Shown here piece after piece: positions 26,105 to 59,214 of a stretch of 64,000 bases of DNA. The DNA is from Pseudofrankia saprophytica (GTDB taxonomy: Bacteria > Actinomycetota > Actinomycetes > Frankiales > Frankiaceae): positions 1,353,290-1,417,289 of the forward strand of contig NZ_KI912267.1 in NCBI RefSeq assembly GCF_000235425.2, written 5' to 3'. The notes under the pieces are model-generated. The model did not search any database. It was not told the origin of the DNA and worked only from the letters and a program-made list of their open reading frames with translations. A program made the translations under genes and the position numbers. Every line of letters begins with the position of its first letter. Positions within the stretch are counted from its first letter, which is position 1.

Positions 26105-26110
26105 GCACAG

Positions 26111-30790: not shown

Positions 30791-31386
30791 CAGCCGCAGG
30801 AACGCCAGCAGCCCGGCGCCGTTCGCGTCCGCCGTCCTCGCGGCCAGCGCCCACTCAGCCTCCTGACTGTCCCAGAGCTGGGGCCGCGGCTCCTTACGCG
30901 GCGGCTTCACCAAGTGCCCGCGGGACCTGCCATGACGGGAGCTGACTTTCCCGGAATCCGTGGTCGTGCGACCGGGTAACCGGGCAGAATGAGTTGGCAA
31001 CGGAGTATCCCGGGACTCGGGAAGTGACTTCAACGATCCCGACCATGCCGGCCGGCCCCGTTGCCTGTGCAGGCACCCATCTTCCGTCACGGTCCGTCAC
31101 CCTGACCGGAGGCAGTTCGCCACCATCACATCAGCCCGGCCATCACACCCTGTCACTGAAATCGGGTCGCGGTCTATGCCGCCGCGCGCATCAACCTCTC
31201 CCGGCCATCCTCGCGAAGATCACATGAAGCGCTCTGACTTGCGATTATGGCTCCTTCCTCAACCCTGTGCGCCTCCTTGGAGCAGCCCGCGACCCCCATG
31301 ACTCCAGGAGTGCCCGACGCCGCACCTCAGGAAAACGAGAGCGGTCCGTGATCACCATTCACAACCAGGAGACAGGCCAAGACGCG
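30791..31386. other. Intergenic region with unknown coding-like fragment
   Basis: No complete gene. On the minus strand about 30789-30930 has strongly coding-like third positions (LVKPPRKEPRPQLWDSQEAE, then WALAARTADANGAGLLAFL) and runs into the reverse transcriptase relic, suggesting the intron or a deletion joined it to another broken gene. The right part should contain the terpene synthase promoter. Confidence 0.35.
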
Positions 31387-43647: not shown

Positions 43648-43699
43648 ACGTCAACCCTCTAATACAAAGGTTGACGTCAGCCTCAGTCTTAGTTACCTT
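43648..43699 (+). promoter_or_regulatory. lcp promoter with inverted repeat
   Basis: TTGACG (43671-43676), 17 bp, then TACCTT (43694-43699) forms a good promoter. The -35 box lies in the right arm of a 9-bp perfect inverted repeat, ACGTCAACC (43648-43656) and GGTTGACGT (43669-43677). From 43668 on the sequence aligns with the promoter of the substrate-binding protein gene at 55582-55613 (AGGTTGACGTCA...CCTCAGT...CTTCCTCGC shared), and the likeness reappears around a relic ATG at 43789. Confidence 0.7.
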
Positions 43700-44030
43700 C
43701 CTCGCGAGTGATGCACCACACACTCGCGCGGCTCGGAGGGGTGTGACGCCGCCGCGCCCGGAGACCTGTATCGAAAAGCGGGGAACCCATGCGGTCACCA
43801 GGGAAGCCGCCATAAGCCATCGTTGGTGTCGGCCTGGGTCAATCCCAGCCCTGCCGTTCGGCGGGTTCTGGGAATCCGGGTTCGGTCGCATTCACAGTGC
43901 CGGGAACAACCGCACCGTAATGGCTGTCCCCACTCGTCGAACGAGTGTCCCCCACTTCTGTCGGCGTCCTGCGTCGACGTGCTCCAGCAGGCGTCTTCAG
44001 TGCCGTTGCCCTCGGGAAGCAGGTCAGGAA

Positions 44031-45242
44031 ATGAGCGAACTCAGCAGGAGACGTGTCCTGACTCTGGGCGCCGCGCTCGGTCTGGTCGGCGTCGGGGACG
44101 TGGTGGCTCCGACCTGGAGCTGGGCGGCGACGGGGTCCGTCGCCGGCACCGGCACCGGCACCGATCCCCAGTGGGTCTGGGACGACACCATCGACCGGGT
44201 GATGGCCTCGGTCATCGACAACGGTCAGGTGCCCGCGGTCAATGCGGCCATCCTTCCATGGACCAACAACAACGCTCCCCTCCCGACCGGGCTGCCGGCC
44301 GATCTCGCTTCCTACTTACAGCAGGCCACGAAGTTACCGTCGTGGGCCGACATGAGCCTGCTGCGTCGCGCGGCCGACTTCAACAGGCGCAAGGACACCT
44401 ATCTGTTCATGCTGTACGGGCTTGGCAGTGGAATCATGAGCACGGTCATCCCGCGCGAGGCCAGGGCGGTGTACTGGTCGGAGGGCAGCGCCGACATGAA
44501 AAGCCGTGCGGCGAAGACCTTCACCTTCGGATATGACCTCAGCCAGTCGAACGCGTTCGAGCCGAACGGGCAGTTCGTCGTCACCGCGAACAAGACGCGC
44601 ATGGTGCATGCCGCCGTCCGTCACCTCCTGCCGCAGTCACCGCAGTGGAAGGCGGCGGCGACCGAGAACGTCCCGATCAGCAACGGCGACATCCTCGTCA
44701 CCTTCCACAGCCTGGGCACGTTCGTGCACTCCAAGCTGCAGCAGTGGAAGGTCCCGATGTCGAAGGCCGACGAGAATGCCTTCCTCCACATGTGGCAGGT
44801 GGCCATCTCGCTGCTCGGCGTGAAGGACGAGTACATCCCCAAGACGTGGGCCGACACCCACGCCCAGTCGGCCCAGGTGCTCTCGCCGATCCTCATGCCC
44901 ACCACCGAGGGCAGAAATCTCGCCGAAGTCCTGCTCGGGCTCGTCTCGGAGGTCGACCTGGGCGTCACGCGCGGCTTCCTCAACGAGTTCGCCCGCTACG
45001 TGCTCGGCGACGCGGTCGCCGACTCGCTCGGGCTGCCACGCGACCTGGTCTCGGCCGGAATAATCAAGGTCGGCTGGCCGACGTACATCCTGTTCCGTGA
45101 GGGACTGCTCCCGATCATGCCGGTCAACTTCTACCTCTTCGACCAGTTCATACGAGCTGTGGCCATGGCGTTCCTCAACGGGGGCACCTCGACGCAGACC
45201 ACTCCCATCACGATCCCCGACATCAACCGTCCCGCGGCCTGA
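44031..45242 (+). CDS. lcp: Latex clearing protein (rubber oxygenase, DUF2236)
   Basis: 403 aa with a Tat signal (SRRRVLTLGAALGLVGVG, cleavage near residue 32), so it is exported. The body matches Lcp of Streptomyces sp. K30, a haem-b dioxygenase that cuts cis-1,4-polyisoprene into oligomers with aldehyde and keto ends. Key residues align with a constant offset of 5: Glu143, Arg159, Lys162, Thr163 and axial His193 correspond to Glu148, Arg164, Lys167, Thr168 and His198 of LcpK30. Motifs seen are STVIPREARAVYWSEG, SRAAKTFTFGYD and TRMVHAAVRHLLPQSPQW. ATG 44031 has AGGTCAGGAA upstream. It shares a promoter type with the binding-protein gene at 55.5 kb. The K83 equivalent is not obvious. Confidence 0.85.
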   Translation: MSELSRRRVLTLGAALGLVGVGDVVAPTWSWAATGSVAGTGTGTDPQWVWDDTIDRVMASVIDNGQVPAVNAAILPWTNNNAPLPTGLPADLASYLQQATKLPSWADMSLLRRAADFNRRKDTYLFMLYGLGSGIMSTVIPREARAVYWSEGSADMKSRAAKTFTFGYDLSQSNAFEPNGQFVVTANKTRMVHAAVRHLLPQSPQWKAAATENVPISNGDILVTFHSLGTFVHSKLQQWKVPMSKADENAFLHMWQVAISLLGVKDEYIPKTWADTHAQSAQVLSPILMPTTEGRNLAEVLLGLVSEVDLGVTRGFLNEFARYVLGDAVADSLGLPRDLVSAGIIKVGWPTYILFREGLLPIMPVNFYLFDQFIRAVAMAFLNGGTSTQTTPITIPDINRPAA

Positions 45243-45263
45243 CGCCCCTCGCCAGGCGCGCGC

Positions 45264-45299
45264 CAGCTGCCCCGCGGCGCCATGTCCGCGGGGCAGCTG
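45264..45299. terminator. Bidirectional terminator between lcp and acyl-CoA dehydrogenase
   Basis: Perfect 14-bp stem CAGCTGCCCCGCGG / CCGCGGGGCAGCTG with an 8-nt loop, between convergent genes. Two copies of an 18-bp direct repeat (CCGCCCGCCCAGACGGCG) follow at about 45353-45388. Confidence 0.85.
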
Positions 45300-45416
45300 A
45301 TGTGGCGGCGGGTCGGTCGCGCCGTGGTCATCACGTTCCGACGGACACGATCCCGCCCGCCCAGACGGCGCCGCCCGCCCAGACGGCGCCCTCCGCCCTT
45401 CGCGCGGCTGCTCGCG

Positions 45417-46580
45417 TCACAGGCCCAGGTCGCGGCCGACGATCTCCTTCATGATCTCGGTCGTGCCGCCGTAGATGGTGGTGATGCGCGAGTCGACGTA
45501 GTCGTGCGCGATGCGGTACTCGGACATGTATCCGTAGCCTCCGTGCAGCTGCAGACAGCGGCCGACGATGTCGACCAGCTGCTCGGTCGTCCAGAACTTG
45601 GCCGCGGCGGCCTCGGCCGCCGTCAGCTCGCCGCGGGCGTGCCGCGCGACCAGGTCGTCGAGGTAGACGCGGCTCACCCGGGTGGCGGTGACCATCTCCG
45701 CCAGCTCGAACCGGGTGTTCTGGAACGAGCCGATGGGTCTGCCGAACGCCCTGCGCTCGGTCACGTAGGCGAGGGTGCGCTCGAGCACGCCCTCGGCCGA
45801 GGCCACGGCGCCGACGGCGATCGAGAGCCGCTCCTGAGGAAGGTTCCCCATCAGCCCGGCGAATCCGGAGCCCTCCTCGCCGAGGAGGTTCGCCACCGGT
45901 ACCCGCACGTCGTCGAAGAACAGCTCACTGGTGTCCTGGGCGTGCAGGCCCATCTTCTCCAGGTTGCGGCCGCGGCCGAATCCTGGCGCGTCGGCCTCCA
46001 TGACCAGGAGGCTGAGGCCCCTGTGCGGGTCCTGGCCGGTCCGCACCGCCGTGACGACCAGGTCGGCGTTCTGCCCGTTCGAGATGAAGACCTTGCTGCC
46101 GTTCACGACATAGTGGTCGCCCTGGCGCACCGCGCTCGTGCGGATGCCGGCCAGGTCGCTGCCGGTGCCCGGTTCGGTCATGGCGACGGCGACCACCAGC
46201 TCGCCCTTCGCGATTCCCGGAAGCCAGCGGGCCTTCTGCTCGTCATCGGTGAGGTCGGTGAAGTACGGGATGACGATGTCGTTGGACAGCCCGATGCCGG
46301 CCATGCCGTCGGACACCGGGTTGCGGCCGAGCTCCTCGGCGACGATCGCGTTGAAGCGGAAGTCCCGGGTGCCTCCTCCACCGTGCTCCTCGGGAATTCC
46401 GAAGCCGAGGACGCCCGCGCTCGCGGCCTCCTCGAACAGCCATCGGTCGACCTTCCCCTCGGCCCGCCAGCGCTCGGCGTTGGGCGCGGCGTACTTGTCG
46501 ACGAAGGCGCGGACGGTCGCTCGGAACTGCTCGTGCTCGTCGTCATAGAGGGCGCGGCGGGTCGCGAACACGCTGGTCAT
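45417..46580 (-). CDS. Acyl-CoA dehydrogenase
   Basis: 387-aa flavoprotein that introduces a double bond into acyl-CoA. Signatures: AMTEPGTGSDLAGIRTSAV (FAD-binding), GSKVFISNGQNADLVV, ERRAFGRPIGSFQNTRFELAEM, and QLHGGYGYMSEYRIAHDYVDSRI with IYGGTTEIMKEIVGRDL at the end. The base-region Glu follows IYGGTTE, as in the long-chain/isovaleryl group. Last gene of the minus-strand run 55496-45417; 128 bp separate it from the acyl-CoA synthetase gene. Inferred role: beta-oxidation of acids produced upstream. Confidence 0.94.
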   Translation of the reverse strand: MTSVFATRRALYDDEHEQFRATVRAFVDKYAAPNAERWRAEGKVDRWLFEEAASAGVLGFGIPEEHGGGGTRDFRFNAIVAEELGRNPVSDGMAGIGLSNDIVIPYFTDLTDDEQKARWLPGIAKGELVVAVAMTEPGTGSDLAGIRTSAVRQGDHYVVNGSKVFISNGQNADLVVTAVRTGQDPHRGLSLLVMEADAPGFGRGRNLEKMGLHAQDTSELFFDDVRVPVANLLGEEGSGFAGLMGNLPQERLSIAVGAVASAEGVLERTLAYVTERRAFGRPIGSFQNTRFELAEMVTATRVSRVYLDDLVARHARGELTAAEAAAAKFWTTEQLVDIVGRCLQLHGGYGYMSEYRIAHDYVDSRITTIYGGTTEIMKEIVGRDLGL

Positions 46581-46708
46581 CGGTTTCTCCGTTCAGCGTT
46601 TCCGTGTCGTGTTCGGTCGTGTTCACTCGATCGGCTCCGACGGCGTCGGGCCCCGCGCGAGGGGCACCGCGGCGCTCACTCGCGTTCCAGGCCCAGGTAG
46701 ATCGCCGG

Positions 46709-48604
46709 TCACGCGGGCTGTCCGTACAGCCGGTCGATGACGTCGGCGTACTTGCTGCCCACGACCCGGCGCTTCAGCTTGAGGGTGGGTGTGAGCTCCT
46801 CGCTCTCGACCGTCCACTCCTGGGCGAGCAGCTCGAAGGCCTTCACCTGCTCGGGCCGCGAGAGCCGGGCGTTCGCCGCGTCGACGGCCGCGGCCACCGC
46901 CGCGCGGATCGCCGGGTGCCGCGCGAGCTCGGCCAGGGAGCCGGCCTGGACCCCAAGCCCTCGCGCCACGACCGGCGCTACCTCACCGTCGAGCGTGAGA
47001 ATCGCGACGAGGTAAGGATGACCGTCGCCGACCACCATCGCGTGCCCGATCAGCGGGCTCTCCTTGAGCGCGTTCTCGATGGTCGACGGCGCGATGTTCT
47101 TGCCCGACGAGGTGATGATGAGCTCCTTCTTGCGGTCGACCACCCGCAGGAACCCGTCGTCGTCGAGGACGCCCACATCGCCGGTGTGCACCCAGCCGTC
47201 GGCGTCGAGCAGCTCGGCGGTCGCCTCCGGCGCCCGGTGGTAGCCGGGCGTCGCGATGGGTCCGCGCACCAGGATCTCGCCGTCGTCGGCGAGCCGGAGC
47301 TCGACGCCGGGGTGCGGGCGCCCGACCGTGCCGAGGCGGAACGAGCCCGGGCCGCAGGCCGTCGCGGAGCTGGTCGTCTCGGTCAGGCCGTACACGTCAT
47401 AGACGCGCAGGCCCAGGCCGGCCAGGAACCGGGCGACGTCGACGGGCATCGGCGCGGCGGCGCTCGCGGCCCACTCCACCCGGTCGAGACCGAGGGCGGC
47501 GCGCAGCGGTCGCAGGACCGCCGCGTCGACCGCGTCGAACCGTGCCGCCAGCTCCGGCGACGTCGTGTGGCCGGTCTGCGTCGACTCGACGTAGGACAGC
47601 CCGACGGCGAGGGCCCGCTCGACGGCCGACCGCCTGGCCTCGTCGGGCTCGGCCGCGAGCCGGGCGGAGACGCCCGTACGGATCTTCTCCCAGACACGTG
47701 GCACACCGAAGAACCGGGTGGGCCGGACCTCGAGCAGGGTGGGCACGAGCTGGGACGGGTCGTCGATGAGATGGACGTGGCCGCCCCGCAGCTGCGGGAT
47801 GTACATGCCGAGGATCCGTTCGGCGATGTGCGCGAACGGGAGGTACGACACCGAGACGCCCGGGCCTTCCAGGTGGGCGGTCCGGGCGGACGCGACCGCC
47901 TCGAAGCAGATGTTGCGGTGGGTGAGGACGACGCCCTTGGGCGCGCCGGTCGTGCCCGAGGTGTACAGGATCGTGACCGGGTCGTCGGGCCTGACCGCCT
48001 CGCCCCGGGCGAGCAGGGCCGGTCCCTGCCATCCCAGCGCCGCCGCTCCCTCGGCCATCGCCTCCGACCACGTGACGGCGCGCGCGTCGGCGTCCGGCGT
48101 GGCGTCGATGGTCACGACACGGCTGATCTCCGGGCGGTCCGCCAGCGCCACCGACCAGCGCCGGGCATGGTCATCGGTCTCGAGCACGACGATCCGCGGG
48201 GCCGCCTGCGCGGACACGTAGCCGACCTGCTCGGGCGAGAGCGTGTTGTAGACCGAGACGGGGACGCCGCCGGCGAGTACCGCGGCGAGGTCCGCGACCA
48301 CGTGCTCGATCCGGCTGGAACACATGATCGCCACCACGTCGCCCGGCTCCAGGCCCGATTCCAGGAACGTCGCGGCGAGCTCGCGGGCGCGGTCGTGGAC
48401 CTCGGCCCAGGTGACGGTGCGCCAGCCGGTGCCGCCGCCGGATCCGCCGGATCCGGCGGATCCGGCGGATCCGGCGGCGACGCGGCGGTCGGAGTAGGCG
48501 GGTTCGGCGCCGCGCTCCCGGGCCGTGCGCCGCACGGCCTCGACGAGCGTCAGGCCCGCTATCTCGGCCTCGACCGTCGTGCGCTGTTCGTCGATGTCCG
48601 GCAT
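46709..48604 (-). CDS. Long-chain acyl-CoA synthetase (AMP-binding)
   Basis: 631-aa ANL-superfamily enzyme of the FadD15-like group. ATP-binding motif LYTSGTTGAPKGVVLTHRN, then GLTETTSS, VHTGDVG and DRKKELIITSSGKNIAPS. It activates a carboxylic acid to the CoA ester. Near residue 45 a Gly/Ser run (AGSAGSAGSGGSGGG) is encoded by tandem GGATCCGGC units (48438-48478), an unusual insertion in this family. The start is 21 nt after the GMC oxidoreductase stop, so they are co-transcribed. Confidence 0.93.
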   Translation of the reverse strand: MPDIDEQRTTVEAEIAGLTLVEAVRRTARERGAEPAYSDRRVAAGSAGSAGSGGSGGGTGWRTVTWAEVHDRARELAATFLESGLEPGDVVAIMCSSRIEHVVADLAAVLAGGVPVSVYNTLSPEQVGYVSAQAAPRIVVLETDDHARRWSVALADRPEISRVVTIDATPDADARAVTWSEAMAEGAAALGWQGPALLARGEAVRPDDPVTILYTSGTTGAPKGVVLTHRNICFEAVASARTAHLEGPGVSVSYLPFAHIAERILGMYIPQLRGGHVHLIDDPSQLVPTLLEVRPTRFFGVPRVWEKIRTGVSARLAAEPDEARRSAVERALAVGLSYVESTQTGHTTSPELAARFDAVDAAVLRPLRAALGLDRVEWAASAAAPMPVDVARFLAGLGLRVYDVYGLTETTSSATACGPGSFRLGTVGRPHPGVELRLADDGEILVRGPIATPGYHRAPEATAELLDADGWVHTGDVGVLDDDGFLRVVDRKKELIITSSGKNIAPSTIENALKESPLIGHAMVVGDGHPYLVAILTLDGEVAPVVARGLGVQAGSLAELARHPAIRAAVAAAVDAANARLSRPEQVKAFELLAQEWTVESEELTPTLKLKRRVVGSKYADVIDRLYGQPA

Positions 48605-48625
48605 GCTCGTTCCTCCAGGACTGCG

Positions 48626-50578
48626 CTAGCCGAGCCGAGCGGCCAGACGGTTGGCGTTCATGTGGGCGATCGCCTCGATCGTGATCATGGGGTTGACACC
48701 CGGTGACGTGGGGAAGCAGGACGCGTCCGCGACGACGACGTTCGGCAGCTCCCAGGTGACGCCGTCCGGATCGGTCGCGCTCGTTTCCCTGGAGTCGCCC
48801 ATCCGCGCCGTGCCCATGAGGTGCAGCGCGGCGATCGCGCACTGACCGGGGCCGTAGCCGGCGGCATGGCAGGCGGAGACGAACTCCTGGTAGGAGCCAC
48901 GTCTCCCCGGCTCGTAGGACGGGCCGGCCTGGTGCGCGGAGTAGATCCTGCGCGCGCCCGCGGCCTCGATGATCCGGGTCGCCCCCTCGACGCCCGCCTT
49001 CAGGTGCGCGGCGTCGTAGCCCGAGAGCCGGTAGCGCGGAATCGGTTCCCCGTCCCGGCCGACTCCGACCTCGCCGGAGTCGCGGTCACGGGTGATGACG
49101 CCGACACCTCCGGTATGCGCGAGGTCCTTCATGGTGGCCAGATGCGCGGCGCCGCCTCGCCAGTTCATGAAGCCCTGGAGCGCGGCCGGGTTGCCCGGGC
49201 CGGTCTCGTAGATCACCCCGTAGCCGGAGCCGTCGAGATCGCCGTGCTCCCTGGAGTAGCGGGTCTGCAGGCCGCCCTCCCACGGCCGGATCTCCTCGTC
49301 GTACACGCCCCAGACGGCGGTCGCCGGATGCAGGCGCAGGTACCGGCCGATGTTCGGGTTGGCCAGCCCCGAACGGCGCAGTAGCGCCGGTGTCTGGATC
49401 GCGCCCGCGGCGACGACGACCGACCGGGCCCGCACCGTCACTGTGTGGCCGTCCCGGGTAAGGCCCTGGACGCCGACGGCCCGGCCCCCGCGCACGGCGA
49501 CCCGACGGGCGTCCACGTTCACGACGAGTCGGGCTCCGTGGGACTCCGCGTCCGCGAGCCAGGTCTTCGTGACCGACTGCTTGGCGCCGCGACGACAGCC
49601 ATAGCCGCAGCGCCCGCAGTCGACTCCCATGTCGCAGTCGGTCACGTTGCGCGCCGTCGCGTCGACGTGCCAGCCCAGGGCACGCAGCCCGCGCTCCATC
49701 ACGGCGTCACGGGCGCAGGCGTCGCTGTTGTCCACGTTGACCGACAGCCGTCGGGACACCGCGTCCAACGCGTCGGAGAACTCCGGGAGGTCGAACTGCT
49801 TTACCCCGAGCGCCGCCCATTCGGCCCGAACCTCCGGAGGGGTCGGGAACGAGGTCGTCCAGTTGACGACCGTCCCCCCGCCCAGGCAGGAACCGGCGAC
49901 CAGGGAGACCTGGCCCTCCGCGGTCGTGGCCGGTCCCGCCGCGTACAGCCGGCTCAGGCCGGACAGCTCGCCGCCGTCGAAGTCCGCGTCGTCGTAGTAG
50001 CCGCCACGTTCGAGGACGACGACGTCGAGACCGGCGCCGGCGAGGACCGCGGCCGCGGTGCCGCCGCCCGCGCCCGAGCCGACGACCACGACGTCACAGT
50101 CGTACGCGGTGTCCGACGTCGGGGTCAGGGGCGCGAGCGGGCGGCGGGGGGCTTCCGCCAGCGCGCCCAGGGGTCCTGGGTAGCCGATCGATGCCCAGAC
50201 CGGCGACGAACCGGTGGGTCCTGGCGCGAGGAGGTACGACGACGTGGCCAGGCCGCGCAGGGCCTGGAACAGCACCCGTCTCCGCTCCGCCGGGGACTCC
50301 CCCAGCCGCAGGAGCGCGTCCTCTCGGGCGGCGGGTCCCAGCGCCGAGAACCGCCGCGGGCCCGCACCGAGGAACATGCCCATGAGCCGCGTGTCCCACA
50401 GCGAGAGCAACGTCGAGAGCTGTCGGCGGTCGGCGGCGCGGGGCAGTCCCGCCGCCAGTGCCTCGGCGATGTCGACCGCGCCGAGAGCGCTTGCGGCGGG
50501 GATGCTCGCGCCGTCGCCGGGAGCGAAGGTGTCGCAGATGGCGGCGAGCGCCGCGCGTTGCCTCGCCCCGAGCGTCAT
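48626..50578 (-). CDS. GMC-family FAD oxidoreductase (long-chain alcohol oxidase type)
   Basis: 650 aa. The N-terminal ~130 residues resemble the gluconate-2-dehydrogenase subunit 3-like region found in plant and bacterial fatty alcohol oxidases (RQRAALAAICDTFAPGDG). The FAD motif is DVVVVGSGAGGGTAAAVLAG. A Cys-rich segment CDMGVDCGRCGYGC lies at ~330. The C-terminal active site has LHLMGTARMGD (His) and NPMITIEAIAHMNA (Asn). These enzymes oxidise primary or secondary alcohols, including steroids and fatty alcohols. Its place between a permease operon and acyl-CoA synthetase suggests it oxidises imported alcohols toward acids. Confidence 0.92.
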   Translation of the reverse strand: MTLGARQRAALAAICDTFAPGDGASIPAASALGAVDIAEALAAGLPRAADRRQLSTLLSLWDTRLMGMFLGAGPRRFSALGPAAREDALLRLGESPAERRRVLFQALRGLATSSYLLAPGPTGSSPVWASIGYPGPLGALAEAPRRPLAPLTPTSDTAYDCDVVVVGSGAGGGTAAAVLAGAGLDVVVLERGGYYDDADFDGGELSGLSRLYAAGPATTAEGQVSLVAGSCLGGGTVVNWTTSFPTPPEVRAEWAALGVKQFDLPEFSDALDAVSRRLSVNVDNSDACARDAVMERGLRALGWHVDATARNVTDCDMGVDCGRCGYGCRRGAKQSVTKTWLADAESHGARLVVNVDARRVAVRGGRAVGVQGLTRDGHTVTVRARSVVVAAGAIQTPALLRRSGLANPNIGRYLRLHPATAVWGVYDEEIRPWEGGLQTRYSREHGDLDGSGYGVIYETGPGNPAALQGFMNWRGGAAHLATMKDLAHTGGVGVITRDRDSGEVGVGRDGEPIPRYRLSGYDAAHLKAGVEGATRIIEAAGARRIYSAHQAGPSYEPGRRGSYQEFVSACHAAGYGPGQCAIAALHLMGTARMGDSRETSATDPDGVTWELPNVVVADASCFPTSPGVNPMITIEAIAHMNANRLAARLG

Positions 50579-50677
50579 GAGGACGGTCCGGGAGCCCGGC
50601 CGACGATGTCGGACAACGGCGTCAAGATGCCCTCCTTTGACCTGCCCGGTGCGGCTCTGTTCGGTTCGGTTTCCGGA

Positions 50678-51370
50678 TCAGCGGCCAAAGTAGGCTCGCT
50701 GGATTCGCGCCCGGTCCGCACGCATCGCGGCGGCCGGGCCCTTCAGGGCGATGCGGCCGTGGTGGAGGACCACCGCGTCGTCGGCGACCGACAGTGCCTG
50801 GTCTATGTGCTGCTCGACCAGGACGATCGCCGTCTTCTTCTCGTCGGCGAGGCTGCGCAGGACGGGCAGGATTCCCTGAACGGCGATGGGCGACAGACCC
50901 ATGCTCAGCTCGTCCACCAGCAGAACGCGCGGCTTTCGCAGCAGCGCCTTCGCGATCGCGAGGGTCTGTTGCTCGCCGCCGGACAGCAGGCCACATCGCC
51001 GGTTCATGAGCCCACGAAGCTGGGGGAACCGCGCGAGGATCTCGTCGAGGTCGCCACGCGGCCCGGCGAGCCTGAGGTTCTCGGCCACGGTGAGGCGGTG
51101 GAAGACACCCCGGTTGTCGGGGACCAGGCTGACGCCGGCGCGCGCGGTGCGCTCCACCCTGCCGGTGACAGGCGCCCCGAGCGCGGTGACCGTGCCGGCC
51201 AGCGGTGCCAGGACTCCGGCGGCGGCCAACAGGGTGGTCGTCTTGCCGGCGCCGTTGGGGCCGAGCAGCGCGAGGATGCGGCCCTGGGCGACCTCGATGC
51301 TGATGTCGCGGACGGCGGGCACGCCGCGGTAGCCGGCGCTGAGACCCTCGATCGCCAACGCGGCTGTCAT
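50678..51370 (-). CDS. livF: ABC transporter ATPase (LivF type)
   Basis: 230 aa. Walker A LLGPNGAGKTTTL, signature LLSGGEQQTLAIA, Walker B VLLVDELSMGLSPI, H-loop IVLVEQHIDQAL. This is the short LivF type of branched-chain amino acid/hydrophobic substrate importers. ATG 51370 overlaps the LivG stop as ATGA, so translation is coupled. An upstream extension of the frame is not protein-like. Confidence 0.94.
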   Translation of the reverse strand: MTAALAIEGLSAGYRGVPAVRDISIEVAQGRILALLGPNGAGKTTTLLAAAGVLAPLAGTVTALGAPVTGRVERTARAGVSLVPDNRGVFHRLTVAENLRLAGPRGDLDEILARFPQLRGLMNRRCGLLSGGEQQTLAIAKALLRKPRVLLVDELSMGLSPIAVQGILPVLRSLADEKKTAIVLVEQHIDQALSVADDAVVLHHGRIALKGPAAAMRADRARIQRAYFGR

Positions 51371-52137
51371 GGCGTCACCTGGCTGCCGAGATAGGCGGCC
51401 ACGACGCGTTCGTCGGCGCTGACGTCCGCGGGCGTTCCGGTCGCGATGATCCGGCCGAGGTCCATGACGTACACCCGGTGGCACACCTCCAGCACGAGGG
51501 TCATGTCGTGGTCGATGAGCAGCACGCCGAGACCTGTCGCGCAGATCCGCCCGAGCTCGTCGCCGAAGGCCGCGCTCTCGTCGGTGTCGAGGCCTGCGGC
51601 CGGTTCGTCCAGCAGGAGCGTCCGCGTCGCGCCGACGAGCGCGCGCGCCACGCCGACGAGCTTCTGCTCGCCCAGCGTGAGCTGGTCGGGCCGGCGGTCG
51701 GCCAGCGCCGACATCCCGACCATCTCCAGCGCGGACAGCACCACCCGGTCCGACCGTCGACGACGGGAGAACACGTCGGCGAGCGCCCCGCGCACTCCGG
51801 CGCCCTCGACCGCGACGGCCAGGTTCTCGGCCACCGTGAGGTCACCGAAGAGCTCGCCGGCCTGCCAGGTGCGCGCGAGGCCGGCCTGGCGGCGCCGATG
51901 CGGGCCGGCGCCGTCGAGGCTCGCACCGTCCAGCTCGACGCCGCCCGAGTACCGGCTGAAGCCACTGACCGCGTCGACGAAGGTCGTCTTGCCGGCACCG
52001 TTCGGACCGATGAGACCGACGATCTCCCCTGGCCCGACGGCGAGCGTGACGTCGTCGTTGGCCCGTACGCCGCCGTAGCGGACCGACACGTTCCTCGCCG
52101 CGAACAGCGGCGGGTCCGAACCGCGGTCAGCCGACAT
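51367..52137 (-). CDS. livG: ABC transporter ATPase (LivG type)
   Basis: 256 aa. Walker A LIGPNGAGKTTFVDAVSG, signature LTLGEQKLVGVARAL, Walker B TLLLDEPAAGLDTDES, and LLIDHDMTLVLEV. It pairs with LivF on the fused permease. The start overlaps the permease gene end by 11 nt. Signature reads LTLGEQ rather than LSGGQ, a common LivG variant. Confidence 0.94.
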   Translation of the reverse strand: MSADRGSDPPLFAARNVSVRYGGVRANDDVTLAVGPGEIVGLIGPNGAGKTTFVDAVSGFSRYSGGVELDGASLDGAGPHRRRQAGLARTWQAGELFGDLTVAENLAVAVEGAGVRGALADVFSRRRRSDRVVLSALEMVGMSALADRRPDQLTLGEQKLVGVARALVGATRTLLLDEPAAGLDTDESAAFGDELGRICATGLGVLLIDHDMTLVLEVCHRVYVMDLGRIIATGTPADVSADERVVAAYLGSQVTP

Positions 52138-54157
52138 CGACGGACTCCGCCGCGCTGAACGGCGCTACGCCTGCCGACGTGTCGGTGGCGGTGGCGGAGA
52201 CGGGCCTTCTCCGCGCGCGCCACGCCGCGAACCGCTCCTGGACCGGCCCGCCGTGCGGCGGAAACACGACGGCGCGCACCAGCATGGCGAGTGCGGCGAT
52301 GAGGGTGTAGTACCTGCTCAGATCGAGCGTCTGGGTCAGGACCAGGAAGAAGACACCGAGCGGTCCCGCCAGCCCCGCGATGACGGCGCCGGACATACGC
52401 GTGATCCCGCCGACGTACGTCGTGGCCAGGATGGTGAGCCCGACGAGCACCGTGAACGACGCCGATGACAGCTGGCCGCGGCTGTAGCCGATCAGGCAGC
52501 CGCCGACGCCGGCGAGGAAGGAGGCGATCGCGAAACCGAGCAGCTTGGTGGCGGCCACGTGCACTCCGGCCGCCGCCGCCGCTCGCTCGTTGGAGCGCAC
52601 CGCCAGGAAGGCCCGGCCGGTGCCACCGCCGAGGAGGCGGGCCACCACGATCAGGAGCAGCACCACGATCGTCAGCACCATGTAGGCGAAGCGCAGCGTG
52701 ATGACGTCGGTCCCGTGGCGTACCGCGAGCGAGTAGCCGAAAAGAGACGGGTCCCGGATCCGGTCGCCCGAATACGACGTCAACGCCGGATTGTTGAAGA
52801 CGAAGCTTTCGATGGCCAGGGCGGCCGCGATCGTGGCGACCGCGAGCTGGGCGCCGCGGATGCGCAGCGCGGGGACGCCGACGACGATCCCGAGCGCGGT
52901 CGCGACGAGCGCCGCGAGCAGGATCGAGAGCGGGAACGGCACGCCCGCGTTCGTCGTCAGCTTCGAGAGCGCGAACCCGGCGGTTCCCGCGAAGGCCATC
53001 GTGGCCAGCGAGATCTGGCCGAGATATCCGGTGAGCAGGACCACGGAGACCGAGATCAGCGTCAGGATCGTCGACATCACGACGCTGAACCGCCACGTTC
53101 CGGACGTGGTGGCGATGACCACCGCCACGACGACCGTCGCCGCCGCCGTCGGTACGAGGCGAGGCCGCGGCCTCGACACCGGCGGGAGCCGCGCCCGGTC
53201 GGGACCGCCACGCTCCGGAATGCTCCTGCCGAGCGCGAAGAGGGCGACGACGACGATGGCGAAGGGAACCGCGTCGCCGACCCCCGACTGCGCCCAGGAG
53301 GGCCACCAGCTCTTGGTGGTCAGGAACAGGAGGACCTGCTGGAGGGAGCCGAGCACCAGTCCCGCCGCGCAGGCGGTTCCGATCGAGGTGAGCCGGCCGA
53401 CGAGGGCGATGGCCAGGGCGGGGACGACGTAGAACATGTAGCTCGTCGGATCCAGGCCACCGATGGCCGGAGCGGCGAGGATCACGATCAGCCCCGAGAA
53501 GAGCCCGGTCGCTCCCCACACCAGGGTCGCGAGCCGGTCGGGCGAATAGCCCATGAGGCGCAGCGCGCGCTCGTCCTCGGCCCCGGCACGGGTCGCGATG
53601 CCGATCTTCGTGAACCTGAGGTAGCCCCAGCCGGCGACGGCGATCACGATCGCGATGCCGGCGAGCACCAGGTTGCTCACCGCGATGACGCCGCCGGCCA
53701 GCGTGATGGTCCCGGACGGCAGGATCGGTAGCGGAACCAGCGCGGACGGGTCGAGCCCCAGGGTGTCGCGGTCGAACCTGAGCGTCACCAGTGACTGAAG
53801 AAACAGCATGACGCCCACGGACGCGACCACCTGGCCGAGAACCGACGATCCGCGCAGCGGGCGAAAGACGAGGACCTGCGCGACGAGCGCCCAGACCAGG
53901 CAGCTTGCCGCACCGATCAGGACGGCGGGCAGCACGCCTGTCGGTCCGTGTCCGAGCCTGAGGCTCCCGAGCGGGAGCACCAGCGTTCCGTTGGCCCGGA
54001 GGGCGGCCGTCTGCCAGACGCCCCACAGCGCGAGCGAGCCCTGCGCGAAGTTGATGACGCCGGTGGCGACGTGGACGGTGACCAGGCAGGACCCCAGCAC
54101 CGCGTAGACGGCGCCGGTCGAGAGCCCGAGGACGGCGAACTGCAGGAGCTCGCTCAT
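52127..54157 (-). CDS. Fused LivH-LivM permease
   Basis: 676 aa with about 18 hydrophobic segments in two blocks. The first ~290 residues are LivH-like (GLSTGAVYAVLGSCLVTVHVATG, NFAQGSLALWGVW). A cytoplasmic linker (~325-345, GGPDRARLPPVSRPRPR) is followed by a LivM-like half (VVLLTGYLGQISLATMAFAG, GIVVGVPALRIRGAQLAVAT, AFLAVRSNERAAAAAGVHV). Normally these are two genes. Start 54157 was chosen for GAGG ~6 nt upstream. Together with LivG, LivF and the lipoprotein it forms a complete importer. Confidence 0.92.
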   Translation of the reverse strand: MSELLQFAVLGLSTGAVYAVLGSCLVTVHVATGVINFAQGSLALWGVWQTAALRANGTLVLPLGSLRLGHGPTGVLPAVLIGAASCLVWALVAQVLVFRPLRGSSVLGQVVASVGVMLFLQSLVTLRFDRDTLGLDPSALVPLPILPSGTITLAGGVIAVSNLVLAGIAIVIAVAGWGYLRFTKIGIATRAGAEDERALRLMGYSPDRLATLVWGATGLFSGLIVILAAPAIGGLDPTSYMFYVVPALAIALVGRLTSIGTACAAGLVLGSLQQVLLFLTTKSWWPSWAQSGVGDAVPFAIVVVALFALGRSIPERGGPDRARLPPVSRPRPRLVPTAAATVVVAVVIATTSGTWRFSVVMSTILTLISVSVVLLTGYLGQISLATMAFAGTAGFALSKLTTNAGVPFPLSILLAALVATALGIVVGVPALRIRGAQLAVATIAAALAIESFVFNNPALTSYSGDRIRDPSLFGYSLAVRHGTDVITLRFAYMVLTIVVLLLIVVARLLGGGTGRAFLAVRSNERAAAAAGVHVAATKLLGFAIASFLAGVGGCLIGYSRGQLSSASFTVLVGLTILATTYVGGITRMSGAVIAGLAGPLGVFFLVLTQTLDLSRYYTLIAALAMLVRAVVFPPHGGPVQERFAAWRARRRPVSATATDTSAGVAPFSAAESVDVG

Positions 54158-54242
54158 GCGGACCTCGCCACCGGAGTCATCGGCCACAGCCACAGCCACG
54201 TCCGCGCCGCGTCACGCGGCGCGGACGTCTCGCTCGTTCCGC

Positions 54243-55496
54243 TCAACTCGCACCCGGAATGGTGGAGAGGATCGCCGGTAGCGGAGTGATCCAGCCGCCG
54301 CTCACGGGCTTGAGCGTCAGGTCCTTCTCGACGGTGAACAGCAGCATCTGCGTCGTGCAGTCGGGGGTGGTGGGGATGCCACAGGTGATCCGCGGGCCGA
54401 GGAAACTCGGGAAGTCCTTCAGCGACCGCAGCGTGGTCAGGACGGTTTGGCCGGTGAGCTCATCGGTCGACGCCGCCGTCGCCAGCCCCTTGGCGAAGTC
54501 CACCACGGTCGCGAACTGGCCGTACGCGTAGTAGTCAGCCGGTCCGCCCGCCTTGTCGATGTACTTCGTAGCCAGCGCGATCTGCTGTCCTACCTCGGCT
54601 GGAGCGTTCTTCTCCGACCCAGGCAGCCAGATCGAGGAGTACAGCGTCGCGCCGGGCGCCGACGCAGGGTCCGACTTGATGAAGGCGGTGCAGGCCGCGA
54701 CGAAGACCGCGCCCTTGTAGCCGATGGACCGCAGGTTCCGCACCAACTGGGTGCAGATCGACTCACTGGGCGAGGCGATGAGCCCGGCGACGTCGGGACT
54801 GGTCGACGCGATCGTGGAGGCCACGGCGCTGAAGTTCGGATTGGTCGGCGAGAAGTAGAGTCCGGTCGCCTTGATCCCCATCGCGGCGGCCAGCGGCTTG
54901 AGCTCGGTGTCCACCGTGTTGTGACCCGACGGCGTGTCCTGCACGGTCAGGGTCGCGGACGTCATCCCCTCGGCCTTGAATCCCTGAAGCGCGCCGACGA
55001 GGAAGGACGCCTGCGGGGCGCCGAAGAACAATCGGCCTTCGGCCTTGCTTCCCGTCGTCTGATCGAACGGGATCTGGCCGATCAGCGGGATCTTGGCCGC
55101 GACGAGGGTGTCGACGCCCGCGCTCGAGCTGAGGTTGAAGCCGTCGAACGCCGCGACGACGCCGTCCTGGACGAACTTGTTGGCGCACGAGATGGTGGTC
55201 TCCGGCGTGCCGTCGATCGAGCAGTCCTCGACCGCGATCGGGTGGCCGTCTATCCCGCCGAGCTCGCCGTTGACGTACGAGACGGCCGCCTTCATCCCGG
55301 CGCCGACCCCGGGGAGGGTGGCGACGCCCGAGTCTGGCCGGAAGAATCCGACCTTGATCGGCGTGCCGGTCGCGGCGTTCTCGTCCGGCATGCCGCTCGA
55401 ACCGCTCGAGCCGCTTCCGCAGGCCGCCATCGTCGCGAGCGCGAGACCCAGGCCCAGGCCGACGACGACCCACGGTCGCTTCCTTGCTAATCGCAT
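54243..55496 (-). CDS. ABC transporter substrate-binding lipoprotein (LivK-like)
   Basis: 417 aa. Lipoprotein signal: RLARKRPWVVVGLGLGLAL then MAACGSG with the lipobox Cys. The mature part is a periplasmic-binding-fold type I receptor (IKVGFFRPDSG, NGELGGIDGHPIAVEDCSID, VAAFDGFNLSSSAGVDTLVAA, GQFATVVDFAKGLATA). This class binds amino acids, aromatic acids or other hydrophobic compounds. Start 55496 is fixed by the signal peptide and by AGGAAC just upstream. First gene of the operon; the promoter is at 55582-55613. The ligand is not predictable; oligo-isoprenoids are a hypothesis from context. Confidence 0.92.
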   Translation of the reverse strand: MRLARKRPWVVVGLGLGLALATMAACGSGSSGSSGMPDENAATGTPIKVGFFRPDSGVATLPGVGAGMKAAVSYVNGELGGIDGHPIAVEDCSIDGTPETTISCANKFVQDGVVAAFDGFNLSSSAGVDTLVAAKIPLIGQIPFDQTTGSKAEGRLFFGAPQASFLVGALQGFKAEGMTSATLTVQDTPSGHNTVDTELKPLAAAMGIKATGLYFSPTNPNFSAVASTIASTSPDVAGLIASPSESICTQLVRNLRSIGYKGAVFVAACTAFIKSDPASAPGATLYSSIWLPGSEKNAPAEVGQQIALATKYIDKAGGPADYYAYGQFATVVDFAKGLATAASTDELTGQTVLTTLRSLKDFPSFLGPRITCGIPTTPDCTTQMLLFTVEKDLTLKPVSGGWITPLPAILSTIPGAS

Positions 55497-55581
55497 GGGT
55501 TCCTCGCATCTCGATCGGGATTCCGGCACGGCGCCATGGCACCCACCCGGTGATTGGGTGTGAAGCCCGTCCGCGGCGAGG

Positions 55582-55613
55582 AAGTTATCTATAACTGAGG
55601 ATGACGTCAACCT
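55582..55613 (-). promoter_or_regulatory. Promoter of the transporter operon, paralogous to the lcp promoter
   Basis: Minus strand: TTGACG (55605-55610), 17 bp, TAACTT (55582-55587). Surrounding sequence AGGTTGACGTCATCCTCAGT and CTTCCTCGC matches the lcp promoter region closely. AGTTATCTATAACT (55583-55596) is a palindrome over the -10 region, a possible repressor site for the nearby TetR. Confidence 0.7.
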
Positions 55614-55809
55614 CTTCCTTGGGTTGGCCGACGCGCCCCAGCTCATTCATCAAGATCACATCCTCACGGCCCGGGATCTTGACCCGGCGGGGCGACGACG
55701 GTCGGCGCCGGATTCGATGGTGAGCACATTGGGTGTCCGAGAGAACGCTTACAGCGACGACGAGGCCTGGGAAGGTGGGCTCGTACTATCGCTACAGGTC
55801 GCGGATGGC

Positions 55810-55839
55810 GCGGATGTCCGCCCGCGGGCGGACATCCGC
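55810..55839. promoter_or_regulatory. Perfect 30-bp palindrome upstream of TetR gene
   Basis: GCGGATGTCCGCCCG followed directly by its reverse complement. It lies 38 bp upstream of the TetR start codon and may be its operator, or a cruciform/terminator structure. Confidence 0.55.
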
Positions 55840-55876
55840 CCGCGCCGCTCTCACCAGGTCGAGATGAGGTGTGGTT

Positions 55877-56554
55877 GTGCCGACGTCGGCCGCCGGTCGG
55901 AATCGGGCGAACGCCTCCGAGAACCCCCGGCGCAGACGGAACGATCCTCGCCGCGAGACCACGCCCCGACGTCTCGTGGAGGCGGCCCGCGTCGTCTTCG
56001 AGCGTGACGGCTTCTACAACGCCCGTCTCTCGGACATCAGCGCGGAGGCGAAGGTGGCCTCGGGCACGCTCTACAACTACTACCGCTCGAAACACGACCT
56101 CCTGCACGAGGTGATGAAGGACGTGTCCACCGAGCTGACGGCACTGGCGCCGAACCATGTCAGCGCCCAGCTCGACCCGGTGGGCCGCATCGAGGAAGTC
56201 AACCGTGTCTACATCGAGGCTTTCCAGCGCAATGCTCACGTGTTGCGGGCGGTGTACCAGGCCCGCGACGACGACGAGCGGCTGAAGGTCCAGTGGGACG
56301 AGGTGGCCGAGCATTTCCAGGGCAGGGCGACCCGAGCCATCACCAGGTGGCAGGCGGCGGGACTGGCCTTTGCCGACCTGGATCCCCGGCACACCGCGCA
56401 CGCGCTGACCCTCATGGTCGAGCGCGTGGTCATGGCGTGGTCCTACGAGGGCGTGGAGTACGACCGGGAGACGTTGATCGACACGGTGAACAAGATCTGG
56501 GAGAGGTCCCTGGGCCTACCAAGAAGATCGGACGGTTCAGGCTCGCGCACCTGA
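55877..56554 (+). CDS. TetR-family regulator of the transporter/lcp block
   Basis: 225 aa from GTG 55877 (ATGAGG 7 nt upstream; a GTG at 55871 is too close to it). After a basic N-terminal tail the helix-turn-helix reads LVEAARVVFERDGFYNARLS, DISAEAKVASGTLYNYYRSK. The C-terminal domain resembles the TetR_C groups that bind acyl-CoA-like ligands (LHEVMKDVSTELTAL). It is divergent from the importer operon. In Gordonia polyisoprenivorans the lcp repressor LcpR is also a TetR protein, which makes this a candidate regulator here; that is an inference. Confidence 0.9.
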   Translation: MPTSAAGRNRANASENPRRRRNDPRRETTPRRLVEAARVVFERDGFYNARLSDISAEAKVASGTLYNYYRSKHDLLHEVMKDVSTELTALAPNHVSAQLDPVGRIEEVNRVYIEAFQRNAHVLRAVYQARDDDERLKVQWDEVAEHFQGRATRAITRWQAAGLAFADLDPRHTAHALTLMVERVVMAWSYEGVEYDRETLIDTVNKIWERSLGLPRRSDGSGSRT

Positions 56555-56915: not shown

Positions 56916-57005
56916 GTATGGATTCCTCAGGGTCATCGGGGTACGCGCGATGTCGAGTGCCGGCTGAGGGAAGCAGGCGCCTGCCGTGTGGTAGCGGGCC
57001 CGGGT
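56916..57005 (-). repeat. Duplicate of the 3' end of the Fic gene
   Basis: This 90-bp segment aligns without gaps to 24977-25066, the last part of the Fic gene, with about 81 matches counted by eye. In the Fic frame it reads RARYHTAGACFPQPALD, IARTPMTLRNPY and then a stop. It lies in the same orientation as the Fic gene, 32 kb away, and overlaps the end of the wax ester synthase gene in a different frame. Confidence 0.8.
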
Positions 57006-58369
57006 TCGCCAGACGACCCGGCCCGGCCGTGGTCCAGAACAGCGGCAGCCGAGCGCACAGGGACGGGACCGCCGAGGGCGGCGAGTTCGGCGAGCCAGCG
57101 GTCCGCCAGCTCGGCATGCCGCGGCACGCTCGCGCTCGCCGTGAACCCGGCGCACACCTGCGAGCCGAGGCCGAACAGCCCAACCGTGAGATGCGCCCGG
57201 CCGACGAACAGTGGCGACATGCCAATCAGCGTGGAGACCTTCCGGCCCGCGACGGAGAAAGGGCCGCGCATCGTCCCGATGTTGGTCGCCGTGAGTGCCA
57301 TCTCCTTTGGGCGTATTCCGGCGGTCGCGGCCTGGGCGAACATCTGGGGCGGTAGGCCCGGCGGAATCCTGTCCAGGGCCCGCCGCAGGACCACGGCTAC
57401 GCTTCCACCTGCCTTGGCACGCCGGGTCTCCGCGGCGACCCGAGCCAGTCGCCGGAATGGGTCAGGGTCCGCGCACGGTAACGGAATCCGGGTGCCGAAA
57501 CTGAAATTGGACAGCATCTCGCGCTCGCTGGGGGTGCGCAGGCTGATCGGCATTACGGCGTGGATGGGGCGCCGACCGTGCCTCCACTCCGGCAGCGACC
57601 ATGAGCGCAGCGCGCCGGCGGTGGCCGCGAGGAAGACGTCATTGATGGTCACCGCGTTCCGGCGGGCGATCTGGCGCAGCGTCTCGAGTTCGGTGATCGC
57701 CCAGGTGTGCCGCGCCCGGCCCCGCGGTGGGCCGCCCCAGGAGGCCAGCTGGCGCGTCCGAGGGATCCCGCGCAGCAGCACGGCGACCATCCGGGCGTAG
57801 TCCCGCGCGCGCGGCGCGCCGAACGTCGACAGATTCCGCATCGCCGGTTCGCGATCGGGTCCGAACAGCAGGTGCAGCGCCTGGTGCAGGGCCCCGCCAT
57901 CCTGGTGGATGTGGTTGATCCGGAACACGACGGCGACCCTGTCGGAGGTGTGCCCGTGCAGCAGCCAGAGCCGCCACAGCGGGCGGTTCAGGTCGAGCGG
58001 CCAGGCGGCGAGTCGGTCCAGCGCTGCCCGCAGGCCGTCCTCCCCGCTACCGGGGAGCAGCTCCTCGGCGCCGACGTGGTAGTCGAGGTCCAGCTCGTGG
58101 TCGAGTTCCCAGACGGTGTCGTCCCTGGACGCGGACGCGGACGGCCGGGAGAGACGCTCGGTGAGCGCCGGCGCCTCGCGCAGCCGTTCCGCCACGTGCG
58201 CCCGCAGCTCGGCGACGGTCAATGTCGGGTCATCGACGTACAGCACCACCCCGTATTCCAGACCCTCCCCGGGGTTGAGCCGGCTGAAGTGCAGGAAACC
58301 GCGGTCGCCGGCGCTCAGCGGTCTGGTCTCCTCGCTGCGCGAGGCAACGTTCACGGATGTCTCTAGCAC
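56933..58369 (-). CDS. Wax ester synthase/diacylglycerol acyltransferase
   Basis: 478-aa WS/DGAT enzyme that esterifies acyl-CoA with an alcohol or diacylglycerol for lipid storage. N-terminus PLSAGDRGFLHFSR, catalytic region FRINHIHQDGGALHQAL (the HHxxxDG motif reads NHIHQDG: first His replaced, catalytic second His and DG kept), then NDVFLAATAGALRSW, NIGTMRGPFSVAG and the C-terminal SQVCAGFTASASVP. GTG 58369 was chosen for GGAGGG 6-7 nt upstream. The last ~24 codons, including the stop, are supplied by the duplicated Fic 3' end read in another frame, so the natural end has been replaced. Confidence 0.9.
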   Translation of the reverse strand: MLETSVNVASRSEETRPLSAGDRGFLHFSRLNPGEGLEYGVVLYVDDPTLTVAELRAHVAERLREAPALTERLSRPSASASRDDTVWELDHELDLDYHVGAEELLPGSGEDGLRAALDRLAAWPLDLNRPLWRLWLLHGHTSDRVAVVFRINHIHQDGGALHQALHLLFGPDREPAMRNLSTFGAPRARDYARMVAVLLRGIPRTRQLASWGGPPRGRARHTWAITELETLRQIARRNAVTINDVFLAATAGALRSWSLPEWRHGRRPIHAVMPISLRTPSEREMLSNFSFGTRIPLPCADPDPFRRLARVAAETRRAKAGGSVAVVLRRALDRIPPGLPPQMFAQAATAGIRPKEMALTATNIGTMRGPFSVAGRKVSTLIGMSPLFVGRAHLTVGLFGLGSQVCAGFTASASVPRHAELADRWLAELAALGGPVPVRSAAAVLDHGRAGSSGEPGPATTRQAPASLSRHSTSRVPR

Positions 58370-58710
58370 GAGGAATCCCTCCGGTATCGCCCACGCCTGG
58401 CTTGCTGGCGATCGATCCGATCGGAGAATCTTGGCGTGTTGGGGCAAAACTACCAAATGCGGCAAACGGAGCCGTCGGCGCGTGGTCGCGCGTCGCCGTC
58501 GACCCCTGGGAGCCAGCGGCATGCGGTAGCGGCCCGCTGGTCGTCTTCGTAGGCTGGAACGAGGCCGCGGTCCGCCGCGAAAGGTCTGGCCGCGGACATC
58601 CGACAGGGCGGTGTCAGGTGCGCCAGCTCTTGATAATTTGTAGCTGACGATTCGTCCGGGCGCGCGCCTGTCATGGCCGGTAGATAGGCGCTTTCGGAAG
58701 AAGGTGGTCA

Positions 58711-59214
58711 GTGAGCGCGGACCCGGAGCCCGTCGCGAGCCGGCCGTGGATGTATGGCTCGACGCTGAGTCCGGGGTTGCTGCCCTGGCGCTGGGCAGTG
58801 GCGACACTGAGAGACGCCGCGCATTACTGGATCGCGACCACCAACGCCGACGGTCGACCCCACACCCGGCCGGTCTGGGGTGTTGTCGTCGACGGCACCG
58901 TCTTTTTCTCGACCGGGTCGAAGGCCGTCGAGAACCTGGCCCGCGGATCGGCGATCAGCGTCCACACCGAGAGCGCGACCCGTCTCGTCATCCTCGAAGG
59001 CACTGCCGAGCAGGAGCACGACCGAGCGACCGTCGAGCAGATCTGCGCCGACTACGCGGCCAAGTACGACGAGCGGCTCGACCCTGACGACCTGCCGGGG
59101 CCGTTCTGGGCCGTCCACCCGTCAGTCGCCTTCGGGTGGCTGGCGGAGCCGAACTTCAGGGACGGCGGCGCCACCTTCCATGGCACCGCCACTCGCTGGA
59201 CGCCTCGGGGCTGA
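58711..59214 (+). CDS. PPOX-class flavin/F420-binding protein
   Basis: 167 aa with the pyridoxamine-phosphate-oxidase-like split barrel: YWIATTNADGRPHTRPVWG, VDGTVFFSTGSKAVENLARG, RLVILEGTAEQEHDRATV, and FWAVHPSVAFGWLAEP. In actinobacteria such proteins often bind FMN or F420 and reduce small molecules. GTG 58711 is preceded by AGAAGGTGG. It is divergent from the wax ester synthase gene. Cofactor choice cannot be decided from the sequence. Confidence 0.88.
   Translation: MSADPEPVASRPWMYGSTLSPGLLPWRWAVATLRDAAHYWIATTNADGRPHTRPVWGVVVDGTVFFSTGSKAVENLARGSAISVHTESATRLVILEGTAEQEHDRATVEQICADYAAKYDERLDPDDLPGPFWAVHPSVAFGWLAEPNFRDGGATFHGTATRWTPRG

Follow-up and report, generated by a model that had tools for sequence, protein, structure and literature searches.

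A Liv-type importer operon beside the rubber oxygenase gene lcp in Pseudofrankia saprophytica: a candidate route for oligo-isoprenoid uptake

The rubber oxygenase LcpK30, encoded in the lcp-oxiAB locus of Streptomyces sp. K30, cleaves cis-polyisoprene, and the oligo-isoprenoids that it releases bear aldehyde and ketone termini. Lcp products are C20 and larger (PMC5522427), and for Nocardia farcinica it was concluded that the aldehydes are oxidised intracellularly after uptake (PMC9782182), so that an importer is required. Mce systems were put forward as the route by which rubber oligomers are taken up (PMC8235351, PMC6311187, PMC9070631), and the Mce/YrbE systems of Gordonia, Nocardia and other adhesive degraders are proposed to drive the import of oligo-isoprenoids by ATP. 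Here we analysed a stretch of 64,000 nucleotides of Pseudofrankia saprophytica (contig NZ_KI912267.1, positions 1,353,290-1,417,289 of the forward strand; genome of 9.98 Mb, labelled G000), hereafter the window, in which an lcp gene lies beside an operon encoding a Liv-type importer and acyl-CoA enzymes; this operon probably imports the oligo-isoprenoids released by Lcp and feeds them into beta-oxidation.

Dactylosporangium AC04546 grows on rubber (PMC11169899, in whose available text none of six transporter or transcriptome terms was found), and for this strain no specific Mce genes were reported and membrane transporters were said to need further analysis (PMC8538451). The legend of Figure 6 of the latter paper, by which alone we judged the likeness to our locus, places an acyl-CoA synthetase (ACS), a thiolase, a FadB-type protein, GMC, an ABC transporter, LivG, LivH, a binding protein, an acyl-CoA dehydrogenase (ACAD), TetR and lcp side by side in the lcp3-lcp2-oxiBA region, the Liv genes being given no uptake role. 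Both this neighbouring block and the Lcp genes of Frankia, tabulated in PMC8235351, are already in print. An earlier note on the window had stated that no described Liv-type importer is known to be assigned to rubber oligomers, and the literature that we searched, with subscription papers mostly outside it, agrees, as no such paper was found in it. Within that literature, what appears new is that a Liv clade is assigned to rubber oligomers and co-occurs with Lcp, and that the operator has two sites.

The lcp gene and the adjoining operon

The genes of the locus are the following, with the domain matches on which each description rests.

44031..45242, + strand: lcp, Lcp-type rubber oxygenase of 403 amino acids (MSELSRRRVLTL...); PF09995, similarity to LcpK30
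45417..46580, - strand: ACAD of the type that tracks lcp; Pfam, co-occurrence in the class sample
46709..48604, - strand: long-chain ACS, FadD11-like; PF00501
48626..50578, - strand: GMC oxidoreductase with an N-terminal Gluconate_2-dh3-like domain; PF00732, PF05199, PF13618
50678..51370, - strand: livF, ATPase; PF00005
51367..52137, - strand: livG, ATPase; PF00005, BCA_ABC_TP_C
52127..54157, - strand: livHM, fused two-half permease; two PF02653 stretches
54243..55496, - strand: livK, substrate-binding lipoprotein; PF13458, type I periplasmic binding fold
55871..56554, + strand: divergent TetR regulator with an EthR_C domain; PF00440, PF21313

The earlier note had described an exported Lcp homologue that carries the catalytic residues of LcpK30 at an offset of 5, and this was borne out by the PF09995 match and by the alignment to LcpK30 (PDB 5o1l), which spans residues 3-402 (E 5.9e-132) and places E143, R159, K162, T163 and H193 without gaps on residues 148, 164, 167, 168 and 198, at a constant offset of 5. 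The first four of these are identical in all 81 Lcp loci compared, the window's included, and H193 in 80 of the 81, the remaining one being X. The roles of the active-site residues were described for LcpK30 (PMC5522427), where Lys167 was moderately conserved (59% among 495 Lcps). The open frame of lcp covers 43671-45242 on the + strand, with the true start most likely at 44031, and by eye the protein has a Tat-like signal, SRRRVLTL and then a hydrophobic stretch. It is the sole Lcp match in its own genome at E <= 0.001; among named genomes the closest full-length Lcp is that of Pseudofrankia asymbiotica (85% identity), and a partial Lcp of Parafrankia soli is 87% identical. An NCBIfam search assigned no family to Lcp or LivK.

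While the window thus shares with Streptomyces sp. K30 a full-length Lcp with all five active-site residues, it differs in what stands next to it: the Liv importer and acyl-CoA genes occupy the neighbouring place, and oxiA and oxiB gave no match beside lcp in a search confined to the window, the remaining genome not having been searched. In four relatives (G022, G028, G030 and G317) oxiB-oxiA do adjoin an lcp. The Pfam search of the minus-strand run identified a Peripla_BP_6 LivK-like protein, a fused LivHM with two BPD_transp_2 stretches, LivG, LivF, GMC, an AMP-ligase and ACAD, and so the run and divergent TetR reported by the earlier note were found as described; with the lipoprotein, both permease halves and two ATPases, all parts of a Liv/HAAT importer are present. 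Starts were refined by inspecting the reading frames (livK 55496, livHM about 54157, livF 51370). The ACS scored 513 bits against NCBIfam NF038343, under that family's cut-off of 950. The earlier note had also linked lcp to the operon. Their adjacency stands; lcp and the seven-gene run are convergent, 174 bp tail to tail, so lcp does not belong to the operon's transcript, and the TetR gene lies at the far, livK end of the run, about 10.6 kb from lcp and not beside it.

Distribution and gene order in relatives

We searched two overlapping samples made up mostly of draft genomes, one of families and one of the class, with Frankiaceae and part of the Nocardioidaceae in both; the window's family was taken as Frankiaceae (f1) and family f26 as Nocardioidaceae. 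Among 35 Frankiaceae genomes, nine have Lcp, and a close LivK (at least 55% identity) is present in eight of the nine and in none of the 26 others. The same eight have a close ACAD (at least 85% identity); the ninth, G020, lacks both, and the match to its Lcp starts at residue 69. Looser ACAD relatives (62% identity, 1e-152 to 1e-154) occur in two Lcp-less Frankiaceae, G008 and G026. In the class sample of 393 Actinomycetes genomes Lcp was found in 35 (E <= 1e-60), LivK (E <= 1e-60) in 12 and ACAD (E <= 1e-175) in 13, and all of the 12 and all of the 13 bear Lcp. The cut-offs for LivK and ACAD were chosen once gaps had been seen in the family searches, in which the LivK matches next in rank lay near 1e-30. 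The class searches scored the top four candidates per genome, and a family search scoring up to 47 returned the same eight Frankiaceae. Fisher tests of Lcp against LivK and ACAD gave 3e-14 and 2e-15, respectively, and about 2e-5 and 1e-6 without Frankiaceae, all uncorrected for kinship and the latter two assuming 26 Lcp-less Frankiaceae in the class sample, 20 of which are listed. LivK spans four families: f1, f4 (G164), f17 (G256) and f26 (G317, G379). A plasmid search returned one LivK relative of 35% identity, on Rhodococcus pUSK13_1, accompanied by an ABC set and with no lcp annotated in the stretch shown.

In relatives the liv, acyl-CoA and lcp genes form either a single run in one direction or reshuffled clusters. 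In G017 and G018 TetR adjoins LivK-LivHM-LivG-LivF-GMC-ACS-ACAD-thiolase-FadB-nitronate monooxygenase-like protein-aldehyde dehydrogenase-Lcp, the named genes being on one strand, although in G018 an opposite-strand gene may interrupt the last two; G022 has the same set plus a second Lcp with OxiB-OxiA. On contig C20 of G028, TetR adjoins LivK-LivHM-LivG-LivF-ACS-ACAD-Lcp-OxiB-OxiA, again on one strand, which joins this kind of importer and the classic lcp-oxi genes in a single run. Compared with the window, LivK of this run is 51-55% and Lcp about 48% identical, and its ACS (about 46-50%) and ACAD (35%) are of other types. G379 and G548 have GMC, TetR, LivK-LivHM-LivG-LivF, ACS, a double-TetR regulator, Lcp and ACAD in two other orders, over about 13 and 18 kb, with an ACS of the kind that adjoins lcp in Streptomyces; the Lcp frame of G548 is intact, the one stop reported in it being the final codon. 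In one Nocardioidaceae genus (G317, G430, G436, G445) the liv genes stand with GMC, ACS, FadB and apparently thiolase and ACAD, away from lcp, and in G164 and G256 they are apart from lcp, with these enzymes not seen in the stretches read. Of the 16 genomes that have both LivK and an lcp, eight have the two no more than about 35 kb apart.

The ACAD also accompanies lcp where the importer does not. Of the 80 Lcp loci taken from named genomes, ten, which all belong to Streptomyces or Lentzea, encode a full-length ACAD (74-81% identity) no more than 10 kb from lcp. LivK and LivHM gave no match within these ten loci; an eleventh locus has a partial ACAD, and ACAD is near lcp at two Frankiaceae loci as well. 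Two further observations on these clusters were made. Contig C100 of G028 (6204-12975, L155) holds ACAD, GMC, a LivF remnant, TetR, Lcp and two operators, most importer genes having been lost, and a DUF4334/GXWXG protein (e.g., L016 7740-8207), of which there is no match in the window, recurs in the liv-lcp and ACAD-lcp clusters of G017, G018, G019, G021, G022 and G030.

A common operator upstream of livK and lcp

Four elements were located upstream of the two genes.

55597..55614, no strand: operator GAGGTTGACGTCATCCTC, an 18-bp palindrome over the -35 box of the livK promoter; like sites in ten relatives
43667..43684, no strand: copy of the liv operator (AAGGTTGACGTCAGCCTC), 346 bp upstream of lcp; matrix of livK sites
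43661..43835, + strand: duplicated liv promoter, leader and remnant livK start before lcp; local alignment
43931..43947, no strand: second palindrome CACTCGTCGAACGAGTG upstream of lcp, a possible other operator; matrix sites

The livK promoter was recognised by eye (TTGACG, 17 bp, TAACTT), and a sigma-70 scan reported no promoter at its threshold. Operators like that of the window were found upstream of livK in G017, G018, G019, G021, G022, G028, G030, G256, G379 and G548, and in the first five of these the TetR beside livK is 83-86% identical to the window's. A matrix was built from nine livK sites, whose own scores are therefore not independent; outside the set used for building it are the lcp sites, a second site of G017, both sites on contig C100 of G028 and the site of G548. 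With this matrix, the copy before lcp is the second-best site in the window (31.1 vs 9.4 for the next). The operator pattern has four matches in the window, which are two sites on both strands, where 0.03 are expected, and in the whole genome its only exact matches are the livK and lcp sites. Three further genomic sites have one mismatch, and they may be background, because a reversed pattern used as control matched twice with up to one mismatch allowed. One such one-mismatch site (G000 C1:5241929-5241946, L186) is near a TetR gene whose product is 30% identical to the liv TetR, possibly a paralogous regulon. A family-wide count of the operator was uninformative, since the pattern used, of which the corrected form is RAGRYTGAYSTCANYCTY, excluded T after the central TCA; it hit G000, G028 and G022, which have Lcp, and G005, which has not, and missed known sites.

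The site before lcp is part of a 175-bp stretch that aligns to the livK promoter, leader and first codons, with a score of 150 against the window's own livK promoter (maximum of 72 in 300 base shuffles of it) and 160 against that of G018. Contig C100 of G028, which lacks most liv genes, has a like pair of operator sites, and G017 has its second copy before the DUF4334/GXWXG-type gene just after lcp. The simplest history to be read from these sequences is that lcp once followed the liv run, as it does in relatives, was then relocated and stayed under the same control by way of the duplicated promoter. The common operator adds evidence for co-regulation of livK and lcp, as far as can be judged from sequence. 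The palindrome CACTCGTCGAACGAGTG may bind another regulator; high-scoring sites like it lie upstream of lcp in G018, G019, G021 and contig C100 of G028, by a matrix built in part from the G018, G019 and G028 sites.

The earlier note had invoked control of lcp by a TetR repressor as in Gordonia. A TetR gene and a palindrome are indeed present, as with the LcpR-type regulators (LcpR of Gordonia VH2, LcpRBA of Streptomyces coelicolor and ACTI_69510 of Actinoplanes OR16), but the operator GAGGTTGACGTCATCCTC differs by eye from the palindromes given for LcpR (PMC7413915), and the window's site also serves the importer operon. A double-TetR type of about 400 amino acids adjoins lcp in Streptomyces, G379 and G548, and has no separate match in the window.

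Elsewhere in the window are genes for a 3376-residue protein with RHS repeats and a C-terminal pretoxin-HINT domain, an architecture of the polymorphic-toxin type (5904-16031, - strand), for a 393-residue protein with a Fic/DOC domain (24956-26134, - strand), and for a terpene synthase of family 2, an isoprenoid-making enzyme about 12 kb from lcp (31267-32364, + strand). Just past TetR is a gene for a wax ester synthase/DGAT-type acyltransferase (56936-58807, - strand), which may store acyl products.

Proposed function and alternative explanations

The co-occurrence of LivK and ACAD with Lcp, the presence of the block in relatives and the shared operator support the proposal of the earlier note that the operon imports and oxidises oligo-isoprenoids, for which we infer the ligand and the chemistry as follows. 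Lcp, exported probably by Tat, would cut cis-polyisoprene into oligo-isoprenoids, and the fragments, or acids derived from them, would be captured at the cell surface by the lipoprotein LivK and imported by LivHM/LivGF using ATP. Inside the cell the GMC oxidoreductase, perhaps with an aldehyde dehydrogenase encoded elsewhere (which was not searched for), would yield the acid, the ACS would activate it and the ACAD would begin beta-oxidation. The divergent TetR would repress livK and lcp through one palindromic operator lying over each promoter, and might be released by an oligo-isoprenoid or its CoA ester.

The structure predicted for LivK (mean pLDDT 81) is that of a type I periplasmic binding protein, and an alignment of 12 members has an invariant Cys26, by eye the lipid-anchor cysteine. 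Among the proteins that it resembles closely in structure are binders of amino acids, R. palustris binders of aromatic acids and 4n03 from Thermomonospora curvata, whose title names a fatty acid binding protein; by sequence the nearest solved relatives are 3uk0 (E 3.5e-6) and 3tx6 (E 7.5e-6), the sequence of the latter being that of the p-coumarate complex 4f8j. LivK shares fold and transporter family with the HAAT/Liv importers of non-amino-acid ligands (4f8j, 4ey3, 4n03), from which it differs in sequence (14-19% identity). The fold can thus accept carboxylates other than amino acids, and it does not indicate LivK's own ligand.

Several observations weigh against uptake of rubber oligomers by this operon. 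The Lcp products are big for a Venus-flytrap protein. The convergent orientation puts lcp outside the livK-ACAD transcript, and in the other eight of the 16 genomes with both genes LivK and lcp are either on different contigs or widely separated. No operator turned up around livK in the stretches of G164, G317, G430, G436 and G445. When the block was sought in other lcp genomes it was present in several, but a close LivK is missing from 23 of the 35 Lcp genomes of the class sample, and to this extent Lcp is independent of LivK. The reverse also occurs: among 197 Nocardioidaceae genomes the LivK profile matches nine and Lcp is found in 13, six having both, so that LivK stands without Lcp (E <= 1e-60) in three of nine (G453, G475, G492). 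These three score 307-532 bits, compared with at least 645 for the six Lcp-bearing genomes, and two of them nest beside the lineage of the Lcp-bearing G164. A close ACAD or GMC was not found in the stretches read of the three, the ACAD of G492 being at 36%; the stretches of G453 and G475 yielded no operator near livK, and in G492 a related but weaker palindrome directly precedes livK (score 18.5). Exclusiveness of LivK to Lcp genomes therefore holds in the class sample and fails in Nocardioidaceae and, given these exceptions and the 23 genomes without LivK, the link between LivK and Lcp is strong, not absolute.

The same three genomes count in favour of the best-surviving alternative, that the operon serves another plant lipid or isoprenoid found with latex, such as long-chain alcohols, acids, polyprenols or terpenoid acids, and is merely co-regulated and co-inherited with lcp. 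A GMC protein with a Gluconate_2-dh3-like domain and a long-chain ACS would suit fatty alcohols and acids generally, and the LivK model aligns well with 4n03. Yet the exceptionless co-occurrence with Lcp in the class sample, lcp in or downstream of the liv run of relatives, and exact operators only at livK and lcp exceed what a general lipid operon needs, and we consider this alternative unlikely.

Entry of oligo-isoprenoids by Mce or by diffusion, with the Liv system in a minor or other role, appears very improbable to us for this organism. Besides its backing in the literature, Mce (PF02470) is present in 20 of the 35 Lcp genomes, compared with 4 of 14 control genomes, and occurs together with LivK in G164, G256, G317 and G379. 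However, it has no match in 15 of the 35, nor in any of the nine Lcp-bearing Frankiaceae genomes, the window's own included, so that Mce uptake was rejected for P. saprophytica; the Mce/YrbE systems are of another protein family, and a binding lipoprotein with a Liv permease is by family an importer. An ordinary branched-chain amino acid importer standing beside lcp by chance or hitch-hiking hardly merits belief: although the parts belong to the Liv/HAAT family and LivK-type paralogues are abundant (29 matches in G000, its own included), LivF, LivG and LivHM fall far short of the NCBIfam cut-offs for Liv and Urt, LivK matches no family, and one LivK clade among many paralogues tracks Lcp and shares its operator with lcp, so that both chance neighbourhood and amino acid import as the main role were rejected. 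The alignment of LivK to LivJ of E. coli (hhalign probability 59%, with a gap at the GPEG stretch) is too weak to decide on the ligand.

Membrane crossing of rubber fragments of C20 and larger is an open step in bacterial rubber breakdown. On balance we favour, with some reserve, the view that a distinct Liv/HAAT clade supplies the missing oligo-isoprenoid uptake in degraders that have no Mce, and that a TetR unlike the known LcpRs jointly controls cutting and import as a regulon with two sites, which outlasted the departure of lcp from the operon thanks to a duplicated importer promoter. The locus names four transporter genes, one regulator and two operator sites as experimental targets, and could guide the engineering of rubber-waste conversion. 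If true, this assignment would add long hydrophobic compounds to the substrates of the Liv family.

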